Positions 976 through 57,955 of a stretch of DNA of 64,000 nucleotides are shown here, piece after piece. Within the stretch, counting starts at the first letter, position 1; each line of letters opens with the position of its first letter. Source of the DNA: Saturnia japonica (taxonomy: Eukaryota > Arthropoda > Insecta > Lepidoptera > Saturniidae); contig CM065323.1 in the NCBI GenBank assembly GCA_033032175.1, positions 1 to 64,000 of the forward strand, in the 5' to 3' direction. Below the pieces are notes generated by a model, which searched no databases, was not told where the DNA came from, and saw only the letters and a list, made by a program, of their open reading frames with translations. Both the position numbers and the translations under genes were made by a program.

Positions 976-1038
<63 letters not shown>

Positions 1039-1039
<1 letters not shown>

Positions 1040-1119
1040 GTGGAGAAACCCGTCATGGGTACACACCCGCCCGGGGGGACGAGTGGTTATGTGAGACTCC
1101 TACTCACTAAAACTCCACG
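1039..1119 (-). promoter_or_regulatory. Conserved 3'UTR RNA fold, class CGTGGAG
   Basis: In the minus-strand RNA a closing stem pairs CGTGGAG with CTCCACG (plus-strand 1113-1119 and 1039-1045). Inside it lies a hairpin with stem GTGAG/CTCAC (1091-1107) and a second hairpin around CACTCG. The fold ends one or two bases before the poly(A) tail, a plausible site for reverse-transcriptase recognition in target-primed reverse transcription. Equivalent folds lie at 7592-7672, 9112-9192, 16156-16236, 33236-33316, 54981-55060 and 55526-55606. Confidence 0.7.
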
Positions 1120-1375
1120 GTGTACCATCGGCCGCCATAGTGGGACGCCGCGGGCACTGCGGATGCAATCTGCCGCGACGCCCCGGCGGCCGGCCCCAGT
1201 CGGGCCCCGGCGCTAAAGAGAAACAGTCTGGTACAACCCCAACTGTCTCCCAGACGGCTGAACCAGTGCAATGGGAAGACGGGCCCCCCGACCCGTCTCC
1301 CCTTGGTCCAGCAAGGGCGGAAGAAGGAGGCGAGTGAACCGCCCCCTCCTACCACCCAACGTCTACGCAACCCCC

Positions 1376-3057
1376 CTACAGAGGTGGTGGAGCAGGCGGT
1401 GCCTTTCCTCTCTTTTCAGGGGGCCTACATTGGGCGCCCCCCATGTAATGCTCCGCCGGCCTTCCGGCGTCGGCACACAAGGCACAGTGCAGCTTCTCAG
1501 CAACGCATTCTTGTGCCTTGTGGCCAGCATGCCCACAGCGGAAGCATAGTGCTCCCCTATCAATTTCCGACGAGCAGAAGGGCCGTGCATGGCCCACCTC
1601 CAGGCACCTAAAGCACCTGAACGCTTTGTTTTTCAGAAGCTTCACGCGTACCGTACTCCACCCGATGAGGAGTCTTTTTGCCACCACTAGTGCTCTGGCA
1701 GCGGCTACAGGGAGCGCCAGATGGATGGTTCCACTGCCTCTCCCATAAGTGCGTATTACTCCGGCCTTTATTAGGGCCGCCTCACACCCACCTTTCGCAG
1801 CCGCCGCCAATACCACCTCATTAACTGTCACCGATTCCTCCAGCCCGACAAGGCGCACTCCAACTCTTTTAATAGGCGTCGTCACAGAGGCCCCTTCTCC
1901 TAAAGCCTCCTGAAGTTGCCGAGCCAATCCAGCGGCCTTCTCCGCACCCCTGTCACCAGGTATCTCTAGGCTTCTAGATCCAGTAGCTGTGGGCTTCAAG
2001 GCTAGGTTCTCTATGCCCAATTCCTCCAGATTAACCCGGTCCTTTGCTCTCATAAGAACCGCTAAATAGCTATCTCCCCCCGCCAAAGCCTCAGGCTGCA
2101 GTGTAATGAGCACTGCAGCCGAGCGCGGAGCCGTGGGGAGCTTTACTTTCGGCTTGGTCCCAGGTACTCTTCCAGGATGGATAGCAGCCTCATTCTTATT
2201 AACTGTTGGATCCACAGAAGAGGGCTTCTTTTTGCCTTTCCGGCGACGTGTCACAGTTGACCACTCCGCGTCAGCCATTGTCAAGTCCGGAGCTGGGGCT
2301 GAGGAAAGGAGTGAGACCCGTTCTATGCCCAAAGGTTGCTCGGCTGTCCTTGTATCCTTAGCCTGAGGCTTAGTTATAGGCACTACTGACTTCGGTCCTG
2401 CGGTTTTAGATCTTGCTGGCCTGGATGGCACTGGACCAGAAGCAAATTTTTTGTCCGCGGCTAAAGCGGGACGGACCACCGGAGCGGGAAGAAGGCGATC
2501 CTCTATGGCCTCCAGGCGGGCGGATATAACCTCCCCAAGGGAGACCCGGAGCGAACGTTCCATAAGTTCCATCTTGCCCACCATCGCTTCTAGCAACACC
2601 TGCTGCAGATCCTGTGGCAGAGTCTCCTGCTGCCGACTTGAAGGTTTCAATTGTGGCTGTGTCTTGGATGGTAGAGGTGCAGTCTGCGATCCACCACGCA
2701 ATGTAGCAATGTCCGCCTTAAGTTCGGCTACCTCCTCGCGGAGTTTCCGCGTCTCTCTTCGGAGAAGGAGTGTTTCCTCCGTCACTGTGCGTGTAAGTGC
2801 AGTTGCAGTGACCTCCTGAAGGGTCCTCGCAGCCTCCTTGAGCTCCTTCACACATGTACCCTTGAGGTTGGTAGACTTTTTACAAACCTCAAGTATTTTT
2901 GAAACCTTATCAGATGCCAAAGCCTTCAACCTTTCTGGGTCAAGGGTCTCAATGTCCTCAATAATCTCTAAAACACCTGTTTCAATTGTGGAACCAGCTT
3001 GTGACTTGGGTAGGGGAGAATCCTGTGACGTATCACCAGATACTCTCGCATGCGTCA
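1376..3057 (-). pseudogene. Gag-like ORF1 protein of G1, N-terminus missing
   Basis: About 560 residues of a non-LTR Gag (ORF1) protein. A coiled-coil-prone N-terminal half, rich in E, K, L and R, is followed by a conserved Gag core and three C-terminal zinc knuckles: CFRC-x4-GH-x4-C, a second C-x2-C-x4-H-x4-C, and a C-x2-C-x7-H type. Such proteins bind the element RNA and form RNPs. The frame is open to the stop at 1376 and runs upstream into S1 sequence, so the ATG at 3085 belongs to the junction and is not the native start. The native N-terminus is absent when compared with G4. Confidence 0.75.
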
Positions 3058-6000
3058 ATCCCGTTTGCGCTGCTCCAGGAGCCATATGTCGGAGGGATCG
3101 GTAGGATGAGATCATACCAGGGCGTCAGGATCTACCAGCACACCAGCACGGGGGAAGACAGCACAAAAGCGGCAATTGCCGTTTTCGACCCAACGTTGCA
3201 TGTCACCCCCTGCCCAATGTACACAAGTAGCAACATTGTTGTTGTTAAGATCGGGAAGGGTGATAGCGCCTGGGTGGTGGTCTCATTCTATTTTGAGCCC
3301 AATGAAGACCTTCATGACTACCTGGAGCAGCTGAGAGCTGTTGTCAGAGGGGTCGGAACCAGGAGAGTAGTGATGGGCGGCGACGCTAACTCGAAAGTAT
3401 TTGGTGGGGCAGTCCTACAGAGGACACGCGAGGGGCGCTCGTGGCCGGCACTCTCGAGGAACTGGGCATGCAGGTGCTGAACGACGGCGACACCCCACGT
3501 TCGACACAGTTCGGGGGGGTAGAACGTTGACAAGCTTTGTGGACGTGACTGCCTGCGCAGCGGAGATACTCGACTTGGTGGACGGATGGACCGTTGACAA
3601 GGGCGTGACGAGTTCGGACCACAACACAATCTTCTTCCGAATTCTTTTAAAGACAGATAGGGGCCTCAATATACACAGAACTACAAGAACCTACAACAGC
3701 AGAAAAGCAAATGGCACCACTTTCATGAAAAGTGGACAGTTTGTTAGGCGCCAAAAATTTTGATAGTCTTGTAAAGATAAAATTGAGGACCCTAGCCTGT
3801 TGGAAGAAAAAGTCGAGGAGTTTATTGGTATAATAATACAAGCTTGTGATAAATCTATACCTAAATTAAAAAAATCAAGAAACCGAACTTTCCTTGGTGG
3901 TCCAACGAACTCGCCACGATGAAGGAGGAGGTCGTCCGTTGAAGAGGAGGCTCCGCTGTGCAGCGCCGGCCCGCAGACAGAACGCCGTCGAGAGGTACCT
4001 CGAGAAGAAAGAGGAATATGGAAAGGAAGCCAAGAAAGCCCAGATAGCCAGTTGGAAGGCCTTCTGCGGAAAGCAGGACAAAGAAGGCCTCTGGGAGGGA
4101 ATTTATAGAGTGATCGGCAGGACAAAGAGAAGGGGCGAAGATGCATTGCTCATGCGGGGGAGCATGGTGCTGGACCCGAGGGAGTCCGCAGAGTATCTGG
4201 CGGAAGTGTTTTACCCGGAGGATGACCCGAAGACCGACGAACCTATCCACTCAAAAATCAGAGCGCAGGCCGAGGGCCTAAATGTTCAGGGCCATCATAA
4301 CGATGAACCGCCATTTACGCACGTTGAACTTAGGCCGCAGTGGATAGGTTCAATCCTAAGAAGGCGCCTGGGTCAGATGGACTCACGGCGGATATTTGTG
4401 CACGCGCCATAAACTGCGCTCCGGAGGCTTGCCTATCACTGGTCAACAAGTGCCTAGAGTTGGGGTACTTTCCCGTGGCTTGGAAGCAGGCTACAGTTGT
4501 AGTCCTGAGGAAGCCCGGGAAGGAAGACCACTCAAGTCCAAAGTCTTACAGGCCAATAGGACTGTTGCCAGTGATGGGCAAAATCCTCGAACGAATGGTA
4601 ATCGAGAGAGCTAAGTGGCACATCCCCCCACGCTGTCCAACCGTCAGTACGGATTCATGCCCCAAAAAAGCACCGAGGACGCCCTCTATGATCTGATGAC
4701 ACACATCCGCGTCAAACTTGACGAAAAGCGGATCGTCGTACTTGTATCCTTAGACATAGAGGGCGCTTTCGACAATGCTTGGTGGCCGCAGATAAGGGTC
4801 CGGCTGATGGAGGTGGGCTGCTCTGTGGGTATACAGAACATCCTGGGCAGTTACCTCAGGGACAGGGTAGTCCACCTGGGATATGCGGGGGAGAATGTCA
4901 CAAGAAAAACCACTAAAGGCTGCGTGCAGGGCTCGATCGGGGGTCCTATATTGTGGGACCTTTTGCTGGATCCGCTATTGTGGGGACTGGAAGAACGGGG
5001 AGTCCACGTGCAGGCGTACGCGGACGACGTTGTCCTCATTTTCGACGGGGATTGCGCGACAGAAATAGAACGGCAGGCCAACCCAGTGTTGGAATACGTG
5101 CGGGAGTGGGGTGTCTGCAACAAGTTAAGGTTTGCTCCTCAGAAAACCAGCTCCCTAGTTATCACTAGGAAGCTAAAAATACGACACCCCACGCCTCACA
5201 ATGGGTGGCGCAGATGTCGTGGTGTCGCCTCGGATGAAGATCCTAGGATTGACCATTGACAGCAGTCTAACTTTTAGCGAGCACGTGGGCGGCGCCTGCA
5301 GCAGGGCATTGGCGTTGTACAGACAGCTGTCCCGTGCTGCCAAGGTCTCCTGGGGACTTCATCCCGAGGTGATTAGAACCATCTATACGGCGGTTGTGGA
5401 GCCGACAATCATGTACGCGGCGAGTGCCTGGGCGCCAGTGTGCAGCAGGATTGGAGTGCAAAAGCGCTTAAACGTCGTTCAACGTGGCTTCGCGCAGAAG
5501 CTCTGCAAGTCCTACCGGACCGCTTCTCTGAACTCGGTTTTGGTGCTGGCGGGGCTGCTCCCCCTTGATCTGCGTATACGGGAGGCAGCTTTATTGTACG
5601 AGGTCAAGAGAGGGAGGCGCCTGCCGGCGCTTGGAGACAGAGAGGTAGAAAGGATGGCAGCTTTTACATGCACCCCACATCCGGCACGACATGTGGACCT
5701 CGAGCTCAAGGGCCTGGTGGACCAGGATCAGGTCAACTGCAGTAGCGAGCACGATCTACGCATTTTCACCGACGGCAGCAAGATTGAGGACCAGGTGGGG
5801 GCATCATTGTCCGTTTGGTGCAATGATGCGGAGACACACCGTAGGAAACTCAAGCTGTCGTCGTACTGCACAGTCTTCCAGGCCGAGCTCCTGGCCATAT
5901 GTGAAGCCACGGGGGAAATCCTGCGCAGCACTGGCCGTAGCAATGGCATCTATAGCGATTCGTTGTCGGCCCTACAGGCAACGCAAACTGGCGCACTGTT

Positions 6001-7562: not shown

Positions 7563-9070
7563 TTTTTTTTTTTTTTTTTTTTTTTTTTAAACGTGGAGAA
7601 ACCCGTCATGGGTACACACTCGCCCGGGGGGACGAGTGGTTATGTGAGACTCCTACTCACTAAAACTCCACGGTGTACCATCGGCCGCCATAGTGGGACG
7701 CGCGGGCACTGCGGATGCAATCTGCCGCGACGCCCCGGCGGCCGGCCCCAGTCGGGCCCCGGCGCTATAGAGAGACAGTCTGGTACAACCCCAACTGTCT
7801 CCCAGATGGCTGAGCCAGTGCAATGGGAAGACGGGCCCCCCGACCCGTCTCCCCTTGGTTCAGCAATGGTGAAGGAAGGAGGCGAAAAACACTCCCTCCT
7901 AACACCCAACGTCTACGCTACCCCCCCTACGGATGTGGTGGTGCAGGCGGTGCCCTTCCTCTCTTTTCAGGGGGCCTACATTGGGCGCCCCCCCATGTAG
8001 TGCCCCGCCGGCCTTCCGGCGTCGGCACACAAGGCGCAGTGCAGCTTTTCAGCAGTGCACGCTTGCGCCTTGTGGCCAGGCTCTCCGCATCGGAAGCACA
8101 GTGCTCCTCTATTGACCGCCGTTGATGGGCAGAGCGGACGCGTGTGGCCTACCTCCATGCAGCGGTAACACCGCATGGGCCCACCCTCCAGGAGGCGCAC
8201 ACGAGCCGCACTCCACCCGACCAGGAGGCGACCCGCCTCCACCACCACCTTGGCAGCGGCTACAGGTAACGCAAGATGGACTGCGCTTCTGCCCCTGCCA
8301 TAGGTGTTAATAGAGCCAGCCCTGATAAGAGCTGGCTCACAACTCCCCTTAGTCGCTGCAGCCGCAACGACTTCCTCCACCGAGACGGATTCATCCAGTC
8401 CTATGACTCGGATATGGGCCCTTTTAACGGGCCGAGCCACCACAGCCAACCCCGACAACTCTTCCTGGAGGCGCTCCGCCAGCCTATCGGCCTGCTCCGA
8501 ACTTTGATCCCCCCGAATCTCTATGATCCTGGATCCAGTGGCAGAGGGGCGCCACGAGAAATCCTCTATACCGAGCTCTGCCATACTCACTCGGTCCCTC
8601 GCTTCTAAAAGAGCGTCCTTATAGCTAAATCCCTCCGCCACAGCTCCCGGCTGCAGCGTAATAACAACCGCAGCCGAGCGCGGTGCCGAAGGAAGTTTCG
8701 CTTTGGGCTTAGGCTTAGACCTAGGCCCACCTCCAGTCAGGGCAGTAGCTGCAGTCCTCGGAGCCTTAGCGGGCTTCTTGGCGGGCTTTTTATGCCGACG
8801 TCGACGACGAACCACAGTGGTCCACTGCTCCTCAGGCGCTACCACAGGAGCAGAAGCAGGGGTGGAAGCAGGCAGTGGGACCCAGTCCACTCCCATAGGA
8901 CTGTCAGACACAGCAGAGGTAGGCCTAGGCGTCTTGGGTCCCGCAGTTTTAGCCTTTGCAGGCTTAGATTTTGTAGGCCCGGTAGTCACCTTACGGTCTG
9001 CTGCCAAAGGCGGGCGGACTACCCTGGCGGGCAGAAGGCGATCTTCTATCGCCTCTATCTGGGCAGACAT
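7563..9070 (-). mobile_element. Gag-only TRAS-like element G2, 5'-truncated
   Basis: Poly(T) 7563-7588 is followed by the 3'UTR with the conserved fold (7592-7672) and by the 3' two thirds of a gag ORF, with no ORF2. The 3'UTR also has hairpins AGACAGT/ACTGTCT (about 7772-7802) and AGACGGG/CCCGTCT (about 7830-7855). Its 5' end is cut inside Gag at about 9070, next to a degenerate telomeric stretch that became the target of G3. G5 is its closest relative in the window. Confidence 0.8.
7976..9070 (-). pseudogene. Gag fragment of G2, frameshifted at the C-terminus
   Basis: About 360 residues of Gag: the central conserved region and zinc knuckles (CYRC-x4-GH-x4-C, then CFRC-x4-GH-x4-C, then CALC). 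The expected C-terminal tail after the third knuckle is lost because a C-run near 7987-7994 has one or two more C than the same site in G5, which moves the frame to an early stop at 7976. The N-terminus is missing; the open frame continues into the poly(T) of G3 as a run of lysines, which is not part of the gene. Confidence 0.75.
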
Positions 9071-9083: not shown

Positions 9084-9908
9084 TTTTTTTTTTTTTTTTT
9101 TTTTTTTTTAACGTGGAGAAACCCGTCATGGGTACACACCCGCCCGGGGGGACGAGTGGTTATGTGAGACTCCTACTCACTAAAACTCCACGGTGTACCA
9201 TCGGCCGCCATAGTGGGGCGCGCGGGCACTGCGGTTGCAATCTGCCGCAACGCCCCGGCGGCCGGCCCCAGTCGGGCCCCGGCGCTAAAGAGAGACAGTC
9301 TGGTACAACCCCAACTGTCTCCCAGACGGCTGAGCCAGTGCAATGGGAAGACGGGCCCCCCGACCCGTCTCCCCTGGTCCAGCAAGGGCAGAGGAAGGAG
9401 GCGAGTGAACCACCCCCTCCTACCACCCAACGTCTACGCAACCCGCCTACAAAGGTGGTGGAGCAGGCGGTGCCCTTCCTCTCTTTTCAGGAGGCCTACA
9501 TTGGGCGCCCCCCATATAGTGCCCCGCGGGCCTTCCGGCGTCGGCACACAAAGCGCAGTGCAGCTTCTCAGCTGTGCACGCTTGCGCCTTGTGGCCAGGC
9601 TCTCCGCATCGGAAGCACAGTGCTCCTCTATCGACTGCCGTCGATGGGCAAAGTGGACGCGTGTGGCCCACCTCCATGCAGCGAAAACACCGCATGGGCC
9701 CACTCTGCAGGAGGTGCACACGCGCCGCGCTCCATCCGACCAGCAAGCGTTTGGCGTCCACCAACACCTTGGCAGCGGACACAGGCAGTGCAAGATGGAC
9801 AGATCCACAGCCCCTGCCAGACATGTTTATGGATCCAGCCCTGATAAGAGCTGGCTCACATCCCCCCTTTGCCGCTGCAGCTGCAATAACTTCCTCCACC
9901 GAGACGGA
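9084..9908 (-). mobile_element. Gag-only TRAS-like element G3, strongly 5'-truncated
   Basis: Poly(T) 9084-9109, 3'UTR with the conserved fold (9112-9192), then only the C-terminal part of gag. No ORF2. It is flanked by 13-bp direct repeats (9071-9083, 9909-9921), which gives exact ends and shows that truncation at the 5' end happened during integration. Confidence 0.85.
9447..9908 (-). pseudogene. C-terminal Gag fragment of G3
   Basis: About 150 residues in frame to a stop at 9447. It begins at the conserved SVSVEEV region and carries all zinc knuckles (CFRC-x4-GH-x4-C twice, then CALC...GHYMGG) and a proline-rich tail. The N-terminal two thirds are absent by 5' truncation, so it can make at most an RNA-binding stub if expressed. 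Confidence 0.75.
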
Positions 9909-9956: not shown

Positions 9957-9957
<1 letters not shown>

Positions 9958-10041
9958 GTGGGGAAATCCTGCATGGATCCGCCTCCCGAGCCGGGCAGCT
10001 CGAGAGGGGTATGTCAGACTCTTACTGACTAAAACCCCACG
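9957..10041 (-). promoter_or_regulatory. Conserved 3'UTR RNA fold, class CGTGGGG
   Basis: The closing stem pairs plus-strand CGTGGGG (9957-9963) with CCCCACG (10035-10041). The inner hairpin is GTCAG/CTGAC (10013-10017, 10025-10029). A further 10-bp stem lies at about 9981-10006 with one G-U pair in the RNA. Compared with G1/B1, both stems differ on both arms in a compensatory way. Copies in A2 (26313-26397) and A3 (57630-57714) match; A2 has one unpaired base at the foot of the stem. Confidence 0.75.
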
Positions 10042-10184
10042 GTGTTCCTCCTTCACCCATTTGGCCGGGGAGTAGGGACAGCTTACGCATTACTTCTACT
10101 CGCCCGACGGGTGTAGGCCCCTCATAAGGGGCCACCTTCAGCGGTCTGAGGGGTCGAGGTGTGTGACACCCTCCGACGAAGCTA

Positions 10185-16130: not shown

Positions 16131-18499
16131 TTTTTTTTTTTTTTTTTTTTTTTTACGTGGAGAAACCCATCATGGGTACACACCCGCCCGGGGGGACGAG
16201 TGGTTATGTGAGACTCCTACTCACTAAAACTCCACGGTGTACCATCAGCCGCCATAGTGGGGCGCGCGGGCACTGCGGTTGCAATCGGCCGCGACGCCCC
16301 GGCGGCCGGCCCCAGTCGGGCCCCGGCGCTAAAGGGAGACAGTCTGGTACAACCCCAACTGTCTCCCAGACGGCTGAACCAGTGCAATGGGAAGACGGGC
16401 CCCCCGACCCGTCTCCCCTTGGTCCAGCAAGGACAGAGGAGAGAGGCGTGTAAGCACCCCCCACCTACTGCCCAACGTCTACGCTAATGTCCAGCGGAGA
16501 ACTAAGCACTGGCTGAACCCGCCCTTTTACGGAAGGTGGCCGACAGCTGACGCCCCCCATGTAATGGCCTGCTGGCCTCCCGCTATCGGCACAGTAGGCG
16601 CAATGAAGCGCCTCAGCCTCACACTCTTGCGCTCTGTGACCCGGCTTCCCGCACCGGAAACACAGCCCCCCCCTATCAACCGTCGATGGGCAAGTAGGCC
16701 GCGTATGACCCAAGCCCAAACACCTGAAGCACCTCAGAGGCTTTTGCTCCAGGAGATGGACTCGGGCCGAACTCCATCCTACCAGGAGGCGTCCCCCCTC
16801 AACGAGTACTTTCGCCGCGGTGACAGGGAGGGACATATGGACTCTTCCCAAGGTTCTCCCCGAGGTCTGGATTTCCCCCACCCTAATTTCATCTGTCGCG
16901 CACCCTCCCTTGGTCGCGACAGCTGCCACCACCTCTTCCTTCGACACCGAGTCATCCAGGCCAACGATGCGGACGTCCACACGCTTCATTGGCCTGCCTA
17001 TAGTGGCCACGCCCTCTAATGCCATCCGGAGGCAATGTGCCAACTTATCGGCCTGTGTCGCGCCTTGGGCTCCGGGGATCTCAATGACCCTGGCGCCCGT
17101 AGCGGTCTCTCTGACCGATAAATCCTCGATGCCCAGGGCGGGCAAGTCAGACGCCAATCGTGCCCTCAGAAAGGCCTCCTTGTAGCTCACCCCCTGAGCC
17201 ACTGCCTCAGGCTGCAGCGTTATAAGCACTGCAGCTGAGCGTGGGGGCGAGGGGAGCTTAGGCTTCGGCTTTTGCCCAGGCGTACCCTTCTGGAGAGCAG
17301 GAGCAACCGGCGCAGCCACCGCTGGCACCGAATGTGTCGCCACCTTCTTCTTCTTTTTGCGACGAGCCACAACCGTGGTCCACGCCGCATCGGAATCCGT
17401 CGGTGCCGGAAGGCGTGCCCATTCCATACCCAGGACAGGCACTTGAGAGGACGCCGTCAGCCCGGCATCGCAGAGCGAAGGCATCGCGCGAGGCACAGGC
17501 TTGGGACCTGAAGTCTTTGTTCCAGTGGTGCTGGCAGCCGTCGGTCTCTTGTCTGCGGCCAAAGGAGGACGAGGACGAGTCACTGGGACTAAGCGGTCCT
17601 CTAACACCACCAGGCGGGCGTTCATCTCACCAAAAGACTTCTGAAATGTACGCTCCAGGCCCTGGATAGCAACCGCTATGGACTCCTGCCCCTGAGGCCC
17701 TGACAGAGACTCAGGAGATGGTGGAGGAACCTCCTTTCTCGCGTCGGCCTCCTGACGCATATCCAGAATCTCTGCCTTAACCTGCACGAGCTCTCGGCGG
17801 AGCCTCGATATCATGCGCCGAAGGCAAAGCGTCTCCTCGGTCACAGTGCGTGTCAACGCCGTGGACACAATCTCTTGTAGGACACTGGCCGATCCCTTCA
17901 GGTCTTTAATAGACGTCCTTTTTAGATTGCCAGACTTCTTGCAGACGTCGTATATCTTGGCAATCTTTTCGCCAGCCAGAGCTCTTAGCATATCGGGGTC
18001 AAGGGTTTCGATGGCCTGTTCCTCCTCAACCCAGAGCTCCTCACTAGCTCCCTTCTCCTCATCAACCTCTGGCCCTTTCCAGGAAGCTGCATCGCCAGTA
18101 TCTGCATGCCTCTGACCCGCCGAAGACCCTAGGTCATGTGCCCTACCCCTCTGGGCCGTTGTTACTTTCGGGGCTATTACTGGATCTAATGTAAGCGGTT
18201 CCCCTACCCGCTTTAGACCCCCCGCACTTCCCTCGTCACTCACCACATTTCCACGACATTCCTTAAACCTAAGTGTTAAAATTTTTGGGTTAGTTTCACT
18301 CATTGTTGTTCCCACGAGAGTGGGGGAAGAGAAGGTCCACCCAGGCAGTGCCCCCTGTGCCTGGGTAAGCCTAACGTAACCCGTCAGAGAGTCGGCCGGT
18401 TCTCTGACGGGGGTCGCACTCGTGACTGGACTCCCCCCAGCCACGCATCCCCTCGTGGTGCGCCGCCACTTGGGATTGGGGTGATTTTTTATAGAGGTT
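16131..18499 (-). mobile_element. Gag-only TRAS-like element G4, best-preserved copy
   Basis: 2369 bp bounded by an exact 14-bp target duplication. It consists of a type I 5'UTR (18304-18499), one intact Gag ORF, a 3'UTR of about 310 bp and a 24-nt poly(A) tail (poly(T) 16131-16154). There is no room and no trace of ORF2: the Gag stop is followed by the same 3'UTR that follows the ORF2 stop in B1. The 5' end stops inside a hairpin present in the A1 leader, so a short 5' loss is possible. It is a non-autonomous element needing an RT in trans (inference). Confidence 0.85.
16465..18303 (-). CDS. Gag-like protein of gag-only element G4
   Basis: 612 residues from the ATG at 18303, chosen because upstream in-frame codons lie in the leader shared with A1. 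An acidic N-terminus is followed by a coiled-coil-prone region (IETLDPDMLRAL and following, about residues 95-250), a basic linker with KKKKK, the core with SAAVLITLQPEAV and three zinc knuckles near the C-terminus (CFRCLGLGHTRPTC, CFRCGKPGHRAQEC, CAYC...GHYMGG). The frame is fully open, unlike the other G copies. The protein should bind its own RNA; by analogy with HeT-A Gag it could direct RNPs to telomeres, which is inference only. Confidence 0.85.
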   Translation of the reverse strand: MSETNPKILTLRFKECRGNVVSDEGSAGGLKRVGEPLTLDPVIAPKVTTAQRGRAHDLGSSAGQRHADTGDAASWKGPEVDEEKGASEELWVEEEQAIETLDPDMLRALAGEKIAKIYDVCKKSGNLKRTSIKDLKGSASVLQEIVSTALTRTVTEETLCLRRMISRLRRELVQVKAEILDMRQEADARKEVPPPSPESLSGPQGQESIAVAIQGLERTFQKSFGEMNARLVVLEDRLVPVTRPRPPLAADKRPTAASTTGTKTSGPKPVPRAMPSLCDAGLTASSQVPVLGMEWARLPAPTDSDAAWTTVVARRKKKKKVATHSVPAVAAPVAPALQKGTPGQKPKPKLPSPPRSAAVLITLQPEAVAQGVSYKEAFLRARLASDLPALGIEDLSVRETATGARVIEIPGAQGATQADKLAHCLRMALEGVATIGRPMKRVDVRIVGLDDSVSKEEVVAAVATKGGCATDEIRVGEIQTSGRTLGRVHMSLPVTAAKVLVEGGRLLVGWSSARVHLLEQKPLRCFRCLGLGHTRPTCPSTVDRGGLCFRCGKPGHRAQECEAEALHCAYCADSGRPAGHYMGGVSCRPPSVKGRVQPVLSSPLDISVDVGQ

Positions 18500-18541: not shown

Positions 18542-18627
18542 GTTTGGGAAAACCCATCATGGGTACCCGCCCGCCGCGGAGGACAGCAGACGGGTTATGT
18601 GGGACTGTACCCACTAAAAACCCAAAC
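18542..18627 (-). promoter_or_regulatory. Conserved 3'UTR RNA fold, class GTTTGGG
   Basis: Closing stem GTTTGGG (18542-18548) with CCCAAAC (18621-18627); inner hairpin GTGGG/CCCAC (18599-18614). Both stems differ from families A, B and G on both arms yet still pair, and the tail follows directly. N2 has the same at 19448-19533. Confidence 0.75.
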
Positions 18628-18778
18628 ATCGCCTCCGGAGCGCTTGGCGTCGGGGGCACAGGAATCGCTTGCGCATTACCTCTGTGCCCACCGACAAGCG
18701 CTGCCCCCCCGAAGAGAGGCTCTCCCCACTGGAACGCCCATCACCGACCGCAGCCCCAGCCTCCGTTCAATTTTTTCA

Positions 18779-19012
18779 CGAGGTTTTATTCCTCGGTGAT
18801 TTTTTAAGGAGGTTTTCTTCCTCCGGGTTCAGGCCCACACGTCCACCAGAACCCGACGCCTGGTGATTTTTTAACGAGGTTGTCTTCCTCGGTGATTTTT
18901 TAACGAGGTTTTCTTCCTCCAGGCTCCGGCCCCGCAGGACCAGAACCCCGCCCTTGTGATTTTTTAAAGAGGTTGTCTTCCTCTCAATTTTTTAGCGAGG
19001 TTTTCTTCCTCA
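18779..19012 (-). repeat. Array of six short hairpins in N1
   Basis: Six units of the form xGAGG-7 nt-CCTCx', the loop reading TTTTCTT or near on the plus strand, usually preceded by ATTTTTTA. Stems: CGAGG/CCTCG at 18779, GGAGG/CCTCC at 18808, CGAGG/CCTCG at 18875, GAGG/CCTC at 18905, AGAGG/CCTCT at 18968, GAGG/CCTC at 18997. The outer pair changes between units but stays complementary in four of six, which points to a selected RNA structure. Confidence 0.75.
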
Positions 19013-19411
19013 CGGTCGCAGAGGACAGGGAGAGCGGCACAACGAAACACCGACACGCCTCTTCCCCTGCGACCCCACCGCGTCCGCCATCTTTTAGCGA
19101 CGGTGGCGACCCCGTCGAGGCCGCGGAAGGTAGGGTGAGCGGCACAACGAAACACCGACACACCTCTCCCGCCGCGGCCTGTCTCCTTCAGCCGCGGTGC
19201 CTCCCATACGACACCGCGGCTCGCCTCAGCGGCGGTGGCGCCCATACACCACCGCAACCTACTGTTGGCCGCTTCTTCTGGGCTCTTATGCCCAAAGCCC
19301 TGACTAGCAGCCTCGCCTGTGGGTTCCTCTTGGCTTCACCGTGGGGGACCAAGCCACGGTTACTAAGCCCCCCGCCACGACAAGGCGGGAACCCTCCGGG
19401 GGGTCTACCAA

Positions 19412-19413
<2 letters not shown>

Positions 19414-19445: not shown

Positions 19446-20281
19446 CAGTTTGGGAAAACCCATCATGGGTACCCGCCCGCCGCGGAGGACAGCAGACGGG
19501 TTATGTGGGACTGTACCCACTAAAAACCCAAACATCGCCTCCGGAGCGCTTGGCGTCGGGGGCACAGGAATCGCTTGCGCATTACCTCTGTGCCCACCGA
19601 CAAGCGCTGCCCCCCCGAAGAGAGGCTCTCCCCACTGGGACGCCCATCACCGACCGCAGCCCCAGCCTCCGTTCAATTTTTCACGAGGTTTTATTCCTCG
19701 GTGATTTTTTAAGGAGGTTTTCTTCCTCCGGGTTCAGGCCCACACGTCCACCAGAACCCGACGCCTGGTGATTTTTTAACGAGGTTTTCTTCCTCCAGGC
19801 TCCGGCCCCGCAAGACCAGAACCTCGCCCTTGTTATTTTTTAAAGAGGTTTTCTTCCTCTCAATTTTTTAGCGAGGTTTTCTTCCTCACGGTCGCAGAGG
19901 ATAGGGAGAGCGGCACAACGAAACACCGATACGCCTCTTCCCCTGCGACCCCACCGCGTCCGCCATCTTTTAGCGACGGTGGCGACCCCGTCGAGGCCGC
20001 GGAAGGTAGGGTGAGCGGCACAACGAAACACCGACACACCTCTCCCGCCGCGGCCTGTCTCCTTCAGCCGCGGTGCCTCCCATACGACACCGCGGCTCGC
20101 CTCAGCGGCGGTGGCGCCCATACACCACCGCAACCTACTGTTGGCCGCTTCGTCTGGGCTCTTATGCCCAAAGCCCTGACTAGCAGCCTCGCCTGTGGGT
20201 TCCTCTTGGCTTCACCGTGGGGGACCAAGCCACGGTTACTAAGCCCCCCCCGCCACGACAAGGCGGGAACCCTCCGGGGGG

Positions 20282-20346: not shown

Positions 20347-20347
<1 letters not shown>

Positions 20348-20427
20348 GTGGAGAAACCCATCATGGGTACACACCCGCCCGGGGGGACGAGTGGTTATGT
20401 GAGACTCCTACTCACTAAAACTCCACG
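20347..20427 (-). promoter_or_regulatory. Conserved 3'UTR RNA fold of B1
   Basis: Closing stem CGTGGAG (20347-20353) with CTCCACG (20421-20427) and inner hairpin GTGAG/CTCAC (20399-20415). It is the same class as in the gag-only elements, which makes B-type reverse transcriptase the natural candidate to mobilise them. Confidence 0.7.
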
Positions 20428-20622
20428 GTGTACCATCCGCCGCCATACTGGGGCGACGCGGGCACTGCGCTGGCATTCTGCCGCGCCGCCCCGGCGGCCG
20501 GCCCGGCTGAACCGGGCCCCGGCCTAAATAGGAGACGGCTCAGTACACCCTAGCCGTCTCCTCCGTCCGCCGAGCCTGTGCAATGAGAAGACGGGCCCCC
20601 CGACCCGTCTCCTCTGGCTCGG

Positions 20623-23600
20623 CTAGGGTGGCGGGAGTTGGCGCATGAACCGCCTCCTCCTGCCACCCGTTCTTCTTTGTCGGAGAGGGCCGCTCAGGGG
20701 ATCCCCCTCGCGTGCCCTCTCCGCAGCCTCCTTCTGCGAGATGACTTCCTCGCAGAAGGAGGCCATCTCCATCCATGCATTCTCGCTGCCGAGCATGGCT
20801 CTCACCACACTCGGCAGCGAGAGGTCTCCTCCAACAGCTACGGCCAGAGCGCGGCGCTGCCCCACCCACGCAGCACACTCGGAGAGAGTGTGCTGCGCCG
20901 TGTCTTCTGCAGCCCCGCACTCGTGGCACGTAGTGTTCGGTTCCCTCCTGGCAATCTTGTGCAGGTACCATCCGAAGCAACCATGTCCGGATAGTACCTG
21001 CACAAGCCTAAAGCTCAGGGAGCCACGCTCCCTCGTACACCACTGTCGGAGGACCGGGCGGACGGCGTCTATGGTATAACGCCCATAGCGCGCGTCCGCC
21101 AGGTCCTCCTCCCACTTCCTAATAATCACCTCCCGGGCCTCACGTCGGACCCTGTCCACCTCCGTGGGAGCCAGAGGCTCCCCTAACTCTCTCCTCGCCG
21201 CCGTGAATTTATACACGGCGGCGAGCACCTCCGCCTCCAGCTCCCACGGCGGGGAGCCGGCAAGAACTAAGGCCGCCCCCGCGGACACCGATCGGTACCC
21301 GCGAATTACCCTCAGCGCCACAACACGCTGCGTAGCACGCAGTATGCGTCTGTTCGTGGCGCTGAGAGCATCCGACCAGATCGGTGCCCCGTAGACGGCC
21401 ATGCTCCGCACGACCCCCGCGAACAAACGGCGACAGCTCGCGCCCGGCCCCCCCGAATTCGGAAGCAGCCGACCGAGAGCTGCCGCCGCTCCCACTATCC
21501 GCGGTTCGAGTCCCTTAAAGTGGGACTCGAACCGCCAACGTCCGTCCAGGATGAGGCCCAGATATTTCATCTGGGCCCCAACCCGGACCCTCACTCCCTC
21601 CACATTTATGTGGGCCCCAGGAGGCGGCCCACACCGAGGCCCATGAAATAGTATGGCCTCGGTCTTATTCGCCGCCACCCTGAGGCCCAACGCCTTTATG
21701 CGCCCGACCACAAGGGCAGTGCCCTCTGTGGCCAGGCGCGCCACCTCCTCAAAACTTCCCCCCCGGGCTACGACTAGGGTGTCGTCCGCGTAGCATAGCA
21801 CTCGCACCCCCGAAGGGAGAGCTACGCGGAGCACCCAGTCGTAGCCCATGTTCCACAGGAGCGGCCCCAACACCGACCCCTGTGGAACCCCACACCCAGT
21901 GTGGCGCCGGACCATAGCCCCCCTTCCGTCCACGAAGGCGACCTCCCTGCCTTGGAGGTAGTCCCCCAACAGCCGCCGCAGGTACGAGGGCACTCCGAAA
22001 AACCGGAGCGCCTCCCGTATAACACTGTGCGGCAGACTGTTGAAGGCGTTGGCGATGTCGATCGACACCGCCAACAACCTACCTCCCCCCTCGGTCGCCT
22101 CCGCGGACCATTCCTTCAGGGTGGAGAGGGCGTCCAGCGTTGAACGCCCTCTCCGGAAACCGAACTGCCGGTCCGAAAGTACCGGCCCAACTTCCGCCAT
22201 GTGCCGGACGACACGAGACGCCAGAATACGCTCCAGCATCTTCCCCGTGTCGTCCAGCAGCACAAGGGGCCGGTACGAGGACGGGCAGTCCGGGGGGCGA
22301 CCCTCCTTCCCCAGAAGGCAGAGTCGCCCCATCTTCCAGAGCTTCGGGAACCGTCCAACCGACAAACATCGGTTGAACAGCTCCCGAAGCTCTATCCCCA
22401 TGTGGTTCAGCGCCACACTTAAAACCTGGCCCGGAACTCCGTCCGGGCCTGGCGCCCTCCGCTTGTTGCGGAGGCGCTCCACCACCGACCCCATCTCCTC
22501 CTCAGTGACGGGGGGGGTGGCAACAGCTCCTCCGCAACACTCCCATCTAACATGGGGGGCGGGAGGAGCTCCGGAGGGTCGGGCAGCAACGTGGCCACGA
22601 CCCTCGCCAGGACCTCTGAGTCCAGGGACTCCGTTAAAGGGGGCGCCTGCCCCCGGAACTTCTTCCGGGCAACCCGGTACGGGCGCCCCCACGGGTCCCT
22701 GTCCAGGGTCCTGAGGAGCTCCTCCCACTTTTCATCCTTTGCCCGGCTGATGGCCACCTGCAGGGACTTCCTAGCTTCCCTGTAGTGGCCAAGCAACCGG
22801 GCCTCCTCCCCCTCTATCAGAGTTTGCCGCCGGCGGCAGCGTTGGAGCTGCCGCCGCGCCGCGGAGCAGGCCACCCGGAGATCGGCAATCTCCGGGGTCC
22901 ACCAATACACCGCCCGCCTGCCTTGCGGGCGGTTGTTGCCCCGCGGCATCGACGCGTCGCAGACCGCCGTAATGGCCCTACGGAAACGGCCCGCGATCGC
23001 GTCGATCTCTACGTCATCATGAGCCGGCGCGAGCCAGCTCTGGACGATGGCCGCCTCTTCAGCAAGCTGCCGATTGAGGCGGCTCACCACCCATCGGGGG
23101 AAGTTAACCCCCCCCGGAGCACGGCGCGCCGGCACCTCTGAGGAGGTGGAGACCCCGAACCGGATATACCGGTGGTCTGACAAGGTCTCCACCTCCTCCA
23201 GCACCCTCCAGTCCTGCACACGGCGTGCGACAGACGGCGTGGCGAAGGAGACGTCCACCACGGACCCTCCGTTCTGTCGCACGCACGTGTGCACCGCCCC
23301 ACGGTTGAGGAGGGACAGCCCAGCCTGGACTGCCCACTCCTCCACCGCTGCCCCTCTTGGGTCCGTGGCCACCCCTCCCCATGCCCGCGACTTGGCGTTA
23401 AGGTCGCCAAGCAGGACGATGGGGAGAGGCGACAGCCGCCTAACCACCGGCCCCAGGGAGTCGAGAAACGACTCGAACTCCCTCAGAGGCCGGTTTGGGG
23501 AGAAGTACACACCTACTACTCCGTACCCTCCCCAGGCGGCCGCCACGAACCCTGACCCCCTCTCCTTGATGGAGAGGGGGGACCCCGTACTATAGATAGC

Positions 23601-23771
23601 TACGGAGCCGTCAATGTCACCCGCCCAATAAGGTTGGGCGGGGACACAGTACGGCTCCGCAGCCACCGCGACATTAATGCTCCACTCCGCCACTGATTGC
23701 ACAAATAGGTCTTGTGCAGTGGCGGAGTGGTTTAAATTCGACTGGAGGTAGCTGGTACGATTGTGCTGCAT
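20623..23771 (-). pseudogene. ORF2 (endonuclease-reverse transcriptase) of B1, one frameshift
   Basis: Endonuclease segment from the ATG at 23771 (NLNHSATAQDLF, AEPYCVPA, LLGDLNAKSRAWGG, SDHRYIRF), RT segment to 20623 (APGPDGVPG, DIANAFNSLP, CYADDTLVV) and a C-terminal Cys/His motif (CHECGAAEDTAQHTLSEC). The ATG overlaps the ORF1 stop as TAATG. The two halves are in different frames; the change falls at a run of eight C (minus strand) near 22510, where a ninth C would join them. A sequencing or assembly error in the homopolymer is as likely as a real mutation. Confidence 0.85.
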
Positions 23772-26291: not shown

Positions 26292-26641
26292 TTTTTTTTT
26301 TTTTTTTTTTAATGTGGGGAAATCCTGCATGGATCCGCCTCCCGAGCCGGGCAGCTCGAGAGGGGTATGTCAGACTCTTACTGACTAAAACCCCACGGTG
26401 TTCTTCTCGCACCTATGTGGCCGGGGAGAAGGAACTGCTGTAGCAAAACTTCTACTCAACCCGGCAGGTGTCGTCAGCCCCTCATGAGGGGCCTCTTCTT
26501 GCGGTCTGAGGGGTCGGATAATTGGACACCCTCTGACGAACCGTCGAGGGGCGCATCGAACACTGATGCGCCTCACCTCGGGCTTGTGCATTGACTGCAA
26601 GGGCGAAGGACGTGCCCGCGTCCAACGCCCGCAGGCCTTAT

Positions 26642-29809: not shown

Positions 29810-29811
29810 TA

Positions 29812-33007: not shown

Positions 33008-33155
33008 TTATCGCGGAGTGGCAAACCCGTCATGGGTACACACTCGAAATGGGGGGTCGAGTGGTCATGTGAGAGTCCTACTCACTAAAAAAACTCCGCG
33101 GTGTACAGCCGCCCCATATTGGGGCGACGCGGGCACTGCGCTGGCATTCTGCCGC
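32948..33155 (-). mobile_element. 3'UTR-only TRAS-like fragment E
   Basis: Poly(T) 32948-33006 followed by about 150 bp of 3'UTR resembling B1 but diverged, truncated within the 3'UTR. Its shared fold (33012-33100) pairs CGCGGAGT with ACTCCGCG, a fourth version of the closing stem, and CACTCGA with TCGAGTG (33041-33063). It represents a further, otherwise unseen family. Confidence 0.75.
33012..33100 (-). promoter_or_regulatory. Conserved 3'UTR RNA fold, class CGCGGAG
   Basis: Closing stem CGCGGAGT (33012-33019) with ACTCCGCG (33093-33100). The changed pair is compensated on both arms relative to CGTGGAG/CTCCACG. The hairpin GTGAG/CTCAC is kept. Confidence 0.75.
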
Positions 33156-33174: not shown

Positions 33175-33236
<62 letters not shown>

Positions 33237-33824
33237 GTGGAGAAACCCGTCATGGGTACACACCCGCCCGGGGGGACGAGTGGTTATGTGAGACTCCTAC
33301 TCACTAAAACTCCACGGTGTACCATCGGCCGCCATAGTGGGACGCGCGGGCACTGCGGATGCAATCTGCCGCGACGCCCCGGCGGCCGGCCCCAGTCGGG
33401 CCCCGGCGCTAAAGAGAGACAGTCTGGTACAACCCCAACTGTCTCCCAGACGGCTGAGCCAGTGCAATGGGAAGACGGGCCCCCCGACCCGTCTCCCCTT
33501 GGTTCAGCAATGGTGACGGAAGGAGGCGAAAAACACTCCCTCCTAACACCCAACGTCTACGCTACCCCCCCTACGGAGGTGGTGGTGGTGCAGGCGGTGC
33601 CCTTCCTCTCTTTTCAGGGGGCCTACATTGGGCGCCCCCCATGTAGTGCCCCGCCGGCCTTCCGGCGTCGGCACACAAGGCGCAGTGCAGCTTTTCAGCA
33701 GTGCACGCTTGCGCCTTGTGGCCAGGCTCTCCGCATCGGAAGCACAGTGCTCCTCTATTGACCGCCGTTGATGGGCAGAACGGACGCGTGTGGCCTACCT
33801 CCATGCAGCGGTAACACCGCATGG
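33175..33824 (-). mobile_element. Gag-only TRAS-like element G5, strongly 5'-truncated
   Basis: Poly(T) 33175-33233, 3'UTR with the shared fold (33236-33316), then the C-terminal end of gag, cut in the first zinc knuckle region. It is very similar to G2 and carries the uninterrupted C-run that is lengthened in G2. Flanked by a direct repeat of about 19 bp. Confidence 0.8.
33571..33824 (-). pseudogene. C-terminal Gag fragment of G5
   Basis: About 84 residues with the zinc knuckles CYRCMEVGHTRPFC, CFRCGEPGHKAQAC and CALC...GHYMGG, then a proline-rich tail to the stop at 33571. The rest of Gag is missing through 5' truncation. Confidence 0.75.
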
Positions 33825-53153: not shown

Positions 53154-53230
53154 AAATTTGCCTCCAAATTCATTTAAAATTATATAGGGCAGATGGTCCT
53201 TACCGTAATGGTTTACGTTGATTGTTTTAG

Positions 53231-54304: not shown

Positions 54305-54732
54305 AGCGTGAAGTTTTATATTTTACAAGAATCAAAAGACAATAGCTCGGATATCGGATGACCGCGCTTATCTGTTATGATTCACTGTACGGTGTACGTC
54401 TATAGCAATTTTAGCTTACGACAGAAACACTTTAACACAATATGATATATATATTTAAAAAAAAAATACACAATATAGACAGGAAATATGACAAAAGGAA
54501 CTTGGATAAACGAGAGTACTCACCAAGCCAGCATTCTGCCTCTCCTGCCGAGTCTTGTTGTAGGTACACCAATTCACCCACACAGGATCTTCAATTTTCA
54601 GAAAGTCCTTTCAAAGAGTTCGTACACGCACTTTAAGTTCTTATTATGATCGCGGTAGTAACGACTTAGAAACCGTTCACTTTGCCGAAAATTTTATCCG
54701 ACGAAAAGTGCCGCGATCCTACCGACTGCGCC
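54305..54732 (-). promoter_or_regulatory. Gypsy 5' leader with primer-binding site
   Basis: Non-coding leader. Directly next to the LTR, minus-strand TGGCGCAGTCGGTAGGATC (54715-54733) has the TGG start expected of a tRNA-complementary primer site, sharing its T with the LTR end. Nothing else is recognisable. Confidence 0.7.
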
Positions 54733-54951
54733 AGTTATGATAGGCGGTACGAGTTTAAATTAAAAAAAGATTTATTTTAAAAGAATTATAATAGGTGTTT
54801 ACACTTATGGTTCTTAAACAAGACTAACTTAAAATTAATTAAAGTAATAATCAAGTTGGAGTCACGCCGTCGTTTCCCACGATCGCAATCTGCATGGTCA
54901 GCGATCCCACGGTCTGTATCCGCCGGTCCCAAGGCTTATGACGTGGTAACT
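54733..54951 (-). repeat. Gypsy 5' LTR
   Basis: 219 bp, identical to the 3' LTR by eye, followed by CCTA (54952-54955) and the telomeric CCTAACC. Confidence 0.93.
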
Positions 54952-54958
54952 CCTAACC

Positions 54959-55488
54959 TTTTTTTTTTTTTTTTTTTTTACGTGGAGAAACCCGTCATGG
55001 GTACACACTCGCCCGGGGGGACGGTGGTTATGTGAGACTCCTACTCACTAAAACTCCACGGTGTACCATCGGCCGCCATAGCGGGACGCCGCGGGCAATG
55101 CGGTTGCAATCGTCCGCGTCGCCCCGGCGGCTGGCCCCAATCGGGCCCCGGCGCTAAAGAGAGACAGTCTGGTACAACCCCGACTATCTCCCAGACGGCT
55201 GAACCAGTGCAATGGGAAGACGGGCCCCCTACCCGTCTCCCCTTGGTTCGGCTAGGGCAGAGGAGAGGCGTGGAAGCGCCCCATCCTACTACCCATCGTC
55301 TACGCATATGTCCGGTGATGGACTTGTCGCTGGTATTGGCGCAAAAGGTGGCGTCCCCTTAACGGGAGGCGGCCGGCAGCCAGCGCCCCCCATATAATGT
55401 CCTGCTGGCTGTCCAGCGTCTGCGCAGTATCCACAGTGCAGCGTCACCGCCTCACATTCCAAGGCCTTATGGCCTGGTTTCCCACAAA
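54959..55488 (-). mobile_element. Gag-only TRAS-like element G6, strongly 5'-truncated
   Basis: Poly(T) 54959-54979, 3'UTR with the shared fold (54981-55060), then the last 66 codons or so of gag. In the 3'UTR the stem AGACAGT pairs with ACTATCT through a G-U pair in the minus-strand RNA. It is flanked by CCTAACC on both sides. Confidence 0.75.
55290..55488 (-). pseudogene. C-terminal Gag fragment of G6
   Basis: About 65 residues from the second zinc knuckle (VCGKPGHKALEC) through CGYC...GHYMGG to a TAG at 55290-55292. It has no start codon of its own; the N-terminal part was lost at insertion. It was found by translating the region on the minus strand. Confidence 0.7.
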
Positions 55489-55500
55489 CCTAACCTAACC
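55486..55500 (+). repeat. Short telomeric CCTAA tract
   Basis: AAACCTAACCTAACC between the truncated 5' end of G6 and the poly(T) of G7. Confidence 0.9.
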
Positions 55501-57595
55501 TTTTTTTTTTTTTTTTTTTTTTTTACGTGGAGAAACCCGTCATGGGTACACACTCGCCCGGGGGGACGAGTGGTTATGTGAGACTCCTACTCACTAAAAC
55601 TCCACGGTGTACCATCGGCCGCCATAGTTGGACGCGCGGGCACTGCGGTTGCAATCGGCCGCAACGCCCCGGCGGCCGGCCCCAGTCGGGCCCCGGCGCT
55701 AAAGAGAGACAGTCTGGTACAACCCCAACTGTCTCCCAGACGGCTGAACCAGTGCAATGGGAAGACAGGCCCCCCGACCCGTCTCCCCTTGGTCCAGCAA
55801 GGACAGAGGAGAGAGGCGTGTAAGCACCCCCCACCTACTGCCCAACGTCTGCGCTAATGTCCAGCGGAGGACTCAGCACTGGCTGAACCCGCCCTTTTAC
55901 GGGAGGTGGCCGACAGCTGACGCCCCCCATGTAATGGCCTGCTGGCCTCCCGCTATCGGCACAGTAGGCGCAATGAAGCGCCTCAGCCTCACACTCTTGC
56001 GCTCTGTGACCCGGCTTCCCGCACCGGAAACACAGCCCCCCCCTATCAACCGTCGACGGGCAAGTAGGCCGCGTATGACCCAAGCCCAAACACCTGAAGC
56101 ACCTCAGAGGCTTTTGCTCCAGGAGATGGACTCGGGCCGAACTCCATCCTACCAGGAGGCGTCCCCCCTCAACTAGTACTTTCGCCGCGGTGACAGGGAG
56201 GGACATATGGACTCTTCCCAAGGTCCTCCCCGAGGTCTGGATTTCCCCCACCCTAATTTCATCTGTCGCGCACCCTCCCTTGGTCGCGACAGCTGCCACC
56301 ACCTCTTCCTTCGACACCGAGTCATCCAGGCCAACGATGCGGACGTTCACACGCTTCATTGGCCTGCCTATAGTGGCCACGCCCTCTAATGCTGTCCGGA
56401 GGCAATGTGCCAACTTATCGGCCTGTGCCGCGCCTTGGGCTCCGGGGATCTCAATGACCCTGGCTCCCGTAGCGGTCTCTCTGACCGATAAATCCTCGAT
56501 GCCCAGGGCGGGCAAGTCAGACGCCAATCGTGCCCTCAGAAAGGCCTCCTTGTAGCTCACCCCCTGAGCCACTGCCTCAGGCTGCAGCGTTATAAGCACT
56601 GCAGCTGAGCGTGGGGGCGAGGGGAGCTTAGGCTTCGGCTTTTGCCCAGGTGTACCCTTCTGGAGAGCAGGAGCAGCCGGCGTAGCCACCGCTGGCACCG
56701 AATGTGTCGCCACCTTCTTCTTCTTTTTGCGACGAGCCACAACCGTGGTCCACGCCGCATCGGAATCCGTTGGTGCCGGAAGGCGTGCCCATTCCATCCC
56801 CAGGACAGGCACTTGAGAGGACGCCGTCAGCCCGGCATCGCAGAGCGAAGGCATCGTGCGAGGCACAGGCTTGGGACCTGAAGTCTTTGTTCCAGTGGTG
56901 CTGGCAGCCGTCGGTCTCTTGTCTGCGGCCAAAGGAGGACGAGGACGAGTCACTGGGACTAAGCGGTCCTCTAACACCACCAGGCGGGCGTTCATCTCAC
57001 CAAAAGACTTCTGAAATGTACGCTCCAGGCCCTGGATAGCAACCGCTATGGACTCCTGCCCCTGAGGCCCTGACAGAGGCTCAGGAGATGGTGGAGGAAC
57101 CTCCTTTCTCGCGTCGGCCTCCTGACGCATATCCAGAATCTCTGCCTTAACCTGCACGAGCTCTCGGCGGAGCCTCGATATCATGCGCCGAAGGCAAAGC
57201 GTCTCCTCGGTCACAGTGCGTGTCAACGCCGTGGACACAATCTCTTGTAGGACACTGGCCGATCCCTTCAGGTCTTTAATAGACGTCCCTTTTAGATTGC
57301 CAGACTTCTTGCAGACGTCGTATATCTTGGCAATCTTTTCGCCAGCCAGAGCTCTTAGCATATCTGGGTCAAGGGTTTCGATCGCCTGTTCCTCCTCAAC
57401 CCAGAGCTCCTCACTAGCTCCCTTCTCCTCATCAACCTCTGGCCCTTTCCAGGAAGCTGCATCGCCAGAATCTGCATGCCTCTGACCTCTGACCTCTGAA
57501 AAAAAAAAAAACACCCCCCTGTCACGTATTCGCCGCCGACCGTGAAGCGGTCGACGTTGCCCGGGACACACCACGCGGAGGTTCCTGACTCGTGC

Positions 57596-57598
<3 letters not shown>
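55501..57598 (-). mobile_element. Gag-only TRAS-like element G7 with internal 5' deletion
   Basis: Poly(T) 55501-55524, 3'UTR with the shared fold (55526-55606), a nearly complete gag very close to G4, then an abrupt junction at about 57485-57512 to the outermost 90 bp of the type I leader. The junction has a threefold CTCTGAC-like heptamer and a run of 13 A. No ORF2. It ends at the poly(T) of A3. Confidence 0.8.
55835..57485 (-). pseudogene. Gag-like protein of G7, N-terminus deleted
   Basis: About 550 residues nearly identical to G4 Gag from the RHADxGD region (about G4 residue 64) to the stop at 55835, including the coiled-coil region and all three zinc knuckles. The first 60 or so native residues and the leader are replaced by the deletion junction. 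The open frame reaches an ATG at 57574 in leader sequence, which is unlikely to be a native start. Confidence 0.78.
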
Positions 57599-57629
<31 letters not shown>

Positions 57630-57955
57630 CGTGGGGAAATCCTACATGGATCCGCCTCCCGAGCCAGGCAGCTCGAGAGGGGTATGTCAGACTCTTACTG
57701 ACGAAAACCCCACGGTGTTCTCCACACACCTATGTGGCCGGGGAGCAGGAAATGCTGAAGCAATAACTTCCACTCAACCCGGCAGGTGTCAGCCCCTCAT
57801 GAGGGGCCTCTTCCTTCGGTCTGAGGGGTCGGATGATTGGACACCCTCTGACGAACCGTCGAGGGGCGCATCGAACACAGATGCGCCTCGCCTCGGGCCT
57901 GTGCACTAACTGCAAGGGCGAAGGACGTGCCCGCGTCCACGCCCGCAGGCCTTAT

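Follow-up and report, generated by a model that had tools for sequence, protein, structure and literature searches.

A covarying cloverleaf at the 3' ends of SART-oriented telomeric retrotransposons of Saturnia japonica, a probable template-recognition tag of autonomous, gag-only and noncoding units

In this work we analyzed the first 64 kb of contig C20 of Saturnia japonica (CM065323.1, positions 1 to 64,000; hereafter the window) together with a further sample, C1:1-200000. The genome, of about 580 Mb, has TTAGG telomeres (6374 overlapping matches to a 30-nt TTAGG run), and non-long terminal repeat (non-LTR) elements inserted in the array of the window end in a small fold that we call the cloverleaf. 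The original prediction, made from the letters of the window, had listed 13 copies of this fold and one more at 57630-57714, and a direct check of the sequence confirmed the coordinates and stems of all 14. On the plus strand a poly(T) run adjoins each copy; the sense strand of the RNA is therefore minus, and the features given below lie on the minus strand unless stated otherwise. The gap between cloverleaf and T run is 1-3 nt in 13 of the 14 copies and 5 nt in the class-E copy at 33012-33100.

The copies fall into four classes in the window. Those of class B lie at 1039..1119, the 3' end of a gag-only unit that a plus-strand element interrupts further up; at 7592..7672 and 9112..9192, in short gag-only units; at 16156..16236 and 55526..55606, in gag-only units; at 20347..20427, in an autonomous-type unit; at 33236..33316, with a gag fragment upstream; and at 54981..55060, where one base of helix P3 is missing. 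The class-A copies belong to autonomous-type units and lie at 9957..10041, 26313..26397 and 57630..57714, the outermost pair of helix P1 being broken in the second. Class N, found in noncoding units, is represented at 18542..18627 and 19448..19533, and class E at 33012..33100, in a very short unit. All were recognized by their stems and by a covariance model, and those starting at 1039, 7592, 9957, 18542, 26313, 33012, 54981 and 57630, which span the four classes, were also folded as single sequences.

In these eight folded copies the minimum free energy shape of the minus strand is identical, a four-way junction with z between -3.3 and -5.1. The closing helix, P1, has 7 bp; P2 has 5 bp and a loop of 6-7; P3 is long and variable and, in classes B, A and E, carries a bulge of one base close to the foot; and P4 has 4 bp (ACCC/GGGT or ATCC/GGAT) and a loop bearing AUG. 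The three stems described at first are thus present, and the 4-bp P4 had been overlooked. The letters UUUUA, AUA, AUG and UU of the junction and loops are nearly invariant, with few exceptions. The fold is neither a tRNA (ARAGORN reported 0) nor a known Rfam RNA (0 matches at gathering thresholds).

The G-U pairs of the third stem had been said to work only in the minus-strand RNA. They are real in P3, where they become A-C mismatches on the other strand, and the plus strand nonetheless folds (z -1.7 to -4.5), as would be needed if the element acted as a DNA cruciform at the chromosome end and not as RNA. The energy of the minus strand is nevertheless lower in 8/8 tested copies, by just 0.3 kcal/mol for class E, and a class-B covariance model gives at most 12.4 bits to reverse-strand matches at class-B copies, against 105-116 bits on the minus strand; we therefore regard the cruciform as scarcely credible.

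The covariance model built from 7 class-B copies only recovers all 14 copies of the window, those of the other classes included, with 55-116 bits, the runner-up site reaching 14.9 bits. With a model built from 96 matches the window copies score at least 73 bits and the runner-up 17.2. At the genome level, the P2-region pattern was matched 3752 times, and not once in a reversed control. The 96 matches (62 distinct rows) come from the window, C1:1-200000 and 16 loci picked for a P2 mutation, and two of the rows are halves of one copy split at a chunk edge. In this alignment, which was fitted to the structure, 94.9% of the cells of the 62 distinct rows pair, versus 82.1% in shuffles, and there are 192 double-change cells versus 58.7 +/- 7.3, a value reached by 0 of 500 shuffles; further pair types are not above the shuffles, of which 194 in 500 reach the observed value. 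Slid registers of the same alignment pair in only 27-58% of cells.

The compensatory changes are clearest between classes. Six classes were compared for P1, P2 and P4 (B, E, A, A', M and N, A' being a composite), and 96/96 cells pair, a value that 0 of 100000 shuffles, which take no account of relatedness, attained. Variation is seen in 9 of the 16 pairs, and in each of the nine it affects both sides. P2 alone appears as GTGAG/CTCAC, GTCAG/CTGAC, GTGGG/CCCAC, GTCGG/CCGAC and GCCGG/CCGGC. These changes uphold the earlier claim of a shared fold supported by compensation, and together with the alignment they led us to reject a sequence repeat without structure. A base other than T at P2 position 2 occurs at 279 places in the genome; among the 100 listed, counted by eye, 78 are the double-changed GCCGG/CCGGC and the other 22, mostly deep inside contigs, lack the double change. 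A pyrimidine at P2 position 4 occurs at 16 places, all one-sided mutants or worse, which do not covary and were all retained in the 96-match alignment; 10 of the 16 sit over 1 Mb deep in large contigs, and all behave as is expected of decaying copies. Many copies of the fold are distant from the ends of their contigs (C1:666859 onward, and others elsewhere), some with one-sided stem mutations, and therefore insertion or transfer beyond the telomeres occurs.

Directly upstream of the cloverleaf lies a rod hairpin, which was folded separately in nine representatives of five classes (A' was aligned and not folded). It consists of an outer helix, inner helices and a small apical stem-loop around UGC....GC, mostly with a 3-5 nt bulge on the 3' side of the outer helix; examples are at 20428..20502 (class B, z -2.75), 10042..10116 (class A, z -3.33) and 18628..18702 (class N, z -3.23), and the single-sequence z ranges from -1.56, in class E, to -4.07. 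We consider the rod, with less certainty, a putative second shared element; a second stem-loop has been described in the SART1 3' untranslated region (3'UTR) (PMC7265360).

The units that carry the fold differ widely in content. In the window and C1:1-200000, 74 folds were annotated for matches to ORF1 and pol (36 of class B, 24 A, 8 N, 3 E and 3 M), counts that two tandem duplications on C1 affect. One joins ~115-135 kb to ~140-160 kb (99.9% identical over the 20 kb compared, copies about 25 kb apart) and the other ~43-58 kb to ~59-75 kb (99.99% over 15 kb, copies about 16 kb apart); such blocks are a trace of unequal exchange or of the assembly. Class A has pol within the unit in 21 of 24 cases, the others being a 415-nt unit without a match and two units without a measured limit. 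Its units of about 6.1 kb hold ORF1, with zinc knuckles, and ORF2, with an AP-type endonuclease (EN) and a reverse transcriptase (RT); one has ORF2 at 26642..29824 (1060 aa) and ORF1 at 29812..32526, and the ORF2 of a second lies at 57956..61147 (1063 aa). Class M includes two units of ~6.1 kb with ORF1 and pol, which are mutual duplicates, and a third, C1:30390, whose pol is ~57% identical to that of class A. Class E consists of two duplicate units with a pol ~90% like that of class B, plus the 84-nt unit of the window.

In class B, only 4 of 36 units have ORF1 together with a class-B pol (5.7-5.9 kb, one a duplicate). The autonomous-type unit of the window has ORF1 at 23771..25954 and its EN/RT region at 20623..23771 in two overlapping frames. 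In 21 units there is gag/ORF1 and no pol match; the remainder are two chimeric units with class-A pol pieces, five short units without a match and four without a usable limit. In the two chimeras, C1:59578 and C1:75310, pieces of class-A ORF1 and pol are followed by a gag end that carries a class-B fold, and therefore 3' ends have been exchanged between families.

The gag-only units form a lineage of their own. On C1 there are 12 full-length units of 2.57-3.0 kb without an EN/RT match (8 without the duplicated block), versus 4 sampled units that combine ORF1 with class-B pol (3 without that block); C1:43192 (3.0 kb), which is also mixed, was not counted among them. Ten of the 12 start with GGGGTGC..GTCAG, as do some class-A units, and two, one and its duplicate, with GGGGGTGCG. 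Several gag-only units have, close to their 5' end, a weak match to a short peptide of the class-A and class-B ORF1, LPQEGT..GESL....GCPTFSGGG. In the window, the gag at 16465..18444, an ORF1 with a CCHC zinc knuckle, is followed by no EN/RT match; a second copy of its family, 96% identical, lies at 55835..57574, and a different gag-only lineage, 49% identical to that family, at 1376..3115.

Nine gag-only frames of 584-768 residues are free of stops; when duplicates are set aside, eight C1 units remain, and the frame of one of them (C1:132005) is broken at 466. Between gag-only lineages the pairwise ratio of nonsynonymous to synonymous substitution rates (dN/dS) of gag is 0.18-0.38, with dS often above 1 and near saturation, and two close pairs give 0.65 (dS 0.076) and 0.32 (dS 0.084); judged from these rates, the gag of the lineage is under purifying selection. 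In a midpoint-rooted IQ-TREE phylogeny of 19 ORF1 proteins, 10 gag-only rows form one clade (95/97) beside three autonomous-B rows (100/97). The most parsimonious reading is a single loss of ORF2, after which the lineage would have persisted without it.

The identity among gag-only units rises steeply toward the fold. Over 36 pairs of nine units it is 52.4% in mid-gag, 67.8% in the 3' part of gag, and then 87.3, 91.9 and 96.5%, the last value being that of the final 75 nt; in 18 comparisons with two autonomous class-B units, mean identity is 93.8% over the last 75 nt and falls to 83.3 and then 69.7% in the adjoining segments. For four representatives the fold itself is 98-100% identical between autonomous and gag-only class B. 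A rise from 52% in mid-gag to an average of 87% in the 160 nt before the rod is steeper than slow divergence alone would give, and, with the chimeric units, it speaks for recombination or template switching that swaps 3'UTRs, the likeness of the 3' ends being a by-product and the fold without function. The matched two-sided changes among B, A, E, M and N cannot come from swapping, and neither can the nearly fixed loop letters beside dissimilar flanks: between classes the fold is 57-77% identical versus 46-55% in the 180 nt upstream, a level that was not separately calibrated, with the exception of B versus E (81-83% in the fold, 75-87% upstream). Moreover, the P1 arms of class N pair poorly with those of other classes (2-4 of 7), and therefore an exchange within the fold would break it. 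Since the covariation already largely refutes swapping, we hold a functionless fold to be very improbable.

Among the matches listed, the N units share with other units only the fold. Nine copies of ~0.87 kb, one a duplicate, were found by blastn, with internal repeats of ~92 nt; those of the window lie at 18542..19413, where the repeats are present, and at 19448..20281. An ORF1 or pol match was sought in them and none was found, and among the best 40 blastn rows the match of N to non-N units is confined to nt 795-864, inside the fold.

The original prediction had called these elements TRAS-like, which is probably wrong. On the sense strand the tail junction is A(n)GG in 71 of 73 tailed copies and A(n)GGTTAGG in 45; TRAS membership was rejected on the ground that the poly(A) is not joined to CCTAA on that strand. 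According to the legend in PMC12036569, TRAS tails read An/Tn and SART tails Tn/An, and therefore the fold-bearing elements are SART-oriented. An oppositely oriented SART lineage has been reported in Bombyx (PMC10088271), so membership by orientation alone is not final. Among the best 120 of 356 proteins related to pol, the top named ones are from Helicoverpa armigera (64%) and Papilio xuthus (59%), neither labelled SART or TRAS. Junctions of the form A(n)CCTAACC belong instead to four plus-strand tails (window 7509 and 47571; C1:30245 and C1:190946). A plus-strand element with RNase H at 35362-41187 would belong with these tails by its strand; the cloverleaf models found no such fold in it or in the other TRAS-orientation stretches scanned. 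By eye, two plus-strand elements of TRAS orientation (window 7449-7530, C1:30245) end in a different possible small hairpin, around CCAGAC...GTCTGG, before the poly(A).

We consider it probable that the cloverleaf tags the template for recognition in target-primed reverse transcription, both in cis and in trans. According to this proposal, the last ~85 nt of the sense RNA of telomere-inserted, SART-orientation non-LTR elements of the R1 clade would fold into the cloverleaf, with the rod before it; the RT of the element, perhaps with the ORF1 protein, would bind the cloverleaf, be held beside the poly(A) tail and initiate target-primed reverse transcription there. Autonomous units would use their own RT in cis. 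The gag-only class-B units, which have no RT gene, would depend for their copying in trans on the RT of the autonomous units of class B, whose fold is nearly the same, and the N units would likewise borrow some RT. The protein may read the shape and the unpaired bases, given that drift of paired stems around nearly fixed junction and loop letters is the pattern expected in that case.

For SART1 of Bombyx mori it has been shown that a reporter RNA is mobilised by the SART1Bm proteins only when the SART1 3'UTR is part of it, also in trans, and that a long poly(A) sets the accurate start (PMC7265360); SART1 is also counted among the long interspersed nuclear elements (LINEs) with stringent recognition (PMC3747384). 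As for the proposal that the fold is the recognition element of the RT, the covarying fold is real and placed where such an element is expected, and the role of the RT is a good deduction from the SART1Bm analogy. The idea that one RT may serve several families is supported within class B, whose autonomous and gag-only members have an almost identical fold; it stays conjectural between A, B, M and N, whose stems differ and of which A, B and M each carry their own pol.

Several points weigh against the tag. RT binding and mobilisation in trans are steps that we infer, and recombination or template switching could account for part of the likeness of the 3' ends, given the chimeras and the mixed C1:43192. 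With few independent classes, six of which one is composite, the covariation amounts to about a dozen events, in spite of the thousands of copies, and P3 aligns poorly. For the rod, the RNAalifold consensus on a MAFFT alignment is weak (-3.24 kcal/mol). Beyond this species, the pattern matches on viral contigs L045 and L046, which lack the fold by the model, are due to chance; scans of viral and genome contigs for insect relatives turned up no insect element, a search with a single pol giving no match and others ten distant RTs at 20-29% identity and one 49-residue fragment at 51%.

A further explanation is that the fold serves 3'-end formation or RNA stability (protection, or a poly(A) site), or that it is bound by Gag/ORF1 for packaging and telomere targeting and not by the RT. 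Its position agrees with this: of the 73 tailed copies, the 55 with an exact P1 arm, in which the distance was measured, have the poly(A) 0-3 nt from the cloverleaf, and AATAAA or ATTAAA occurs inside the fold in 0 of 73; the purifying selection on the gag of gag-only units also makes a bond between gag and RNA plausible. However, a stability element need not vary by matched changes between families with different pol, the N units have the fold without a gag match, and the 3'UTR of SART1Bm is needed for retrotransposition and affects the start of reverse transcription (PMC7265360). We therefore regard this explanation as unlikely, yet the most serious competitor of the recognition tag.

Compared with known systems, the elements are closest to SART1 of Bombyx mori in the way they are oriented in TTAGG, in having two ORFs, with EN and RT, and a long poly(A) and, in SART1, a required 3'UTR recognised in trans (PMC7265360); in contrast, gag-only or noncoding partners sharing the 3' end were not met in the accessible literature on SART1. 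SART and TRAS are regarded as autonomous, and HeT-A as the gag-only case (PMC4700185). The gag-only units resemble the HeT-A/TAHRE/TART system of Drosophila, in which an abundant gag-only telomere element depends on the RT of another element (PMC4700185): the full-length sampled gag-only units outnumber the autonomous B units, they encode Gag only, and their gag is kept by selection in one clade. Their transposition by an RT supplied in trans would follow the same scheme, as the shared 3' end suggests. Unlike in Drosophila, the telomere is TTAGG, insertion is into the repeats, the elements are of the R1 clade, and the shared part is a small covarying 3' fold. The N units recall the pairs of short interspersed nuclear elements (SINEs) and LINEs, such as eel UnaL2/UnaSINE, in sharing only the 3' end with autonomous elements; in SINE/LINE tails the stem is kept by compensatory changes and the loop letters are fixed (PMC3747384). 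They differ from these pairs in having a four-way junction and a rod instead of one hairpin, a gag-coding partner class, and telomere specificity. TRAS shares with the fold-bearing elements the telomeric repeat, a related pol (about 27-35% identity) and the same arrays, on the other strand; it differs in its opposite orientation, the RNase H of ORF2 and the lack of a cloverleaf by the models in the stretches scanned.

A HeT-A-like gag-only lineage could have arisen one time from SART-orientation elements and then radiated, accompanied by a noncoding unit copied in trans through a four-way-junction tag, and the drifted stems of the autonomous families may be keys matched to their RTs; we give this history an even chance. 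A literature search for gag-only or non-autonomous SART or TRAS elements found none described, with incomplete coverage of subscription papers, and for the way in which R1-clade telomere elements recognise their template, the accessible literature examined contains no structure backed by covariation. The 3'UTR requirement of the R1 clade is known, and the cloverleaf provides a compact, testable structure with natural compensatory variants; the results also suggest that TTAGG telomeres have their own version of the division of labour known from Drosophila, where a gag-only element relies on an RT made by another element.

Other elements are present in the telomeric array of the window. One of them, at 47571-54954, is retrovirus-like and encodes RT, integrase and a baculovirus F-type envelope; its stretch 47603-47824 recurs unchanged at 54733-54954. 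Another, at 41482-46700, is of the Pao/BEL type, with DUF1759, an A17 peptidase and an integrase.

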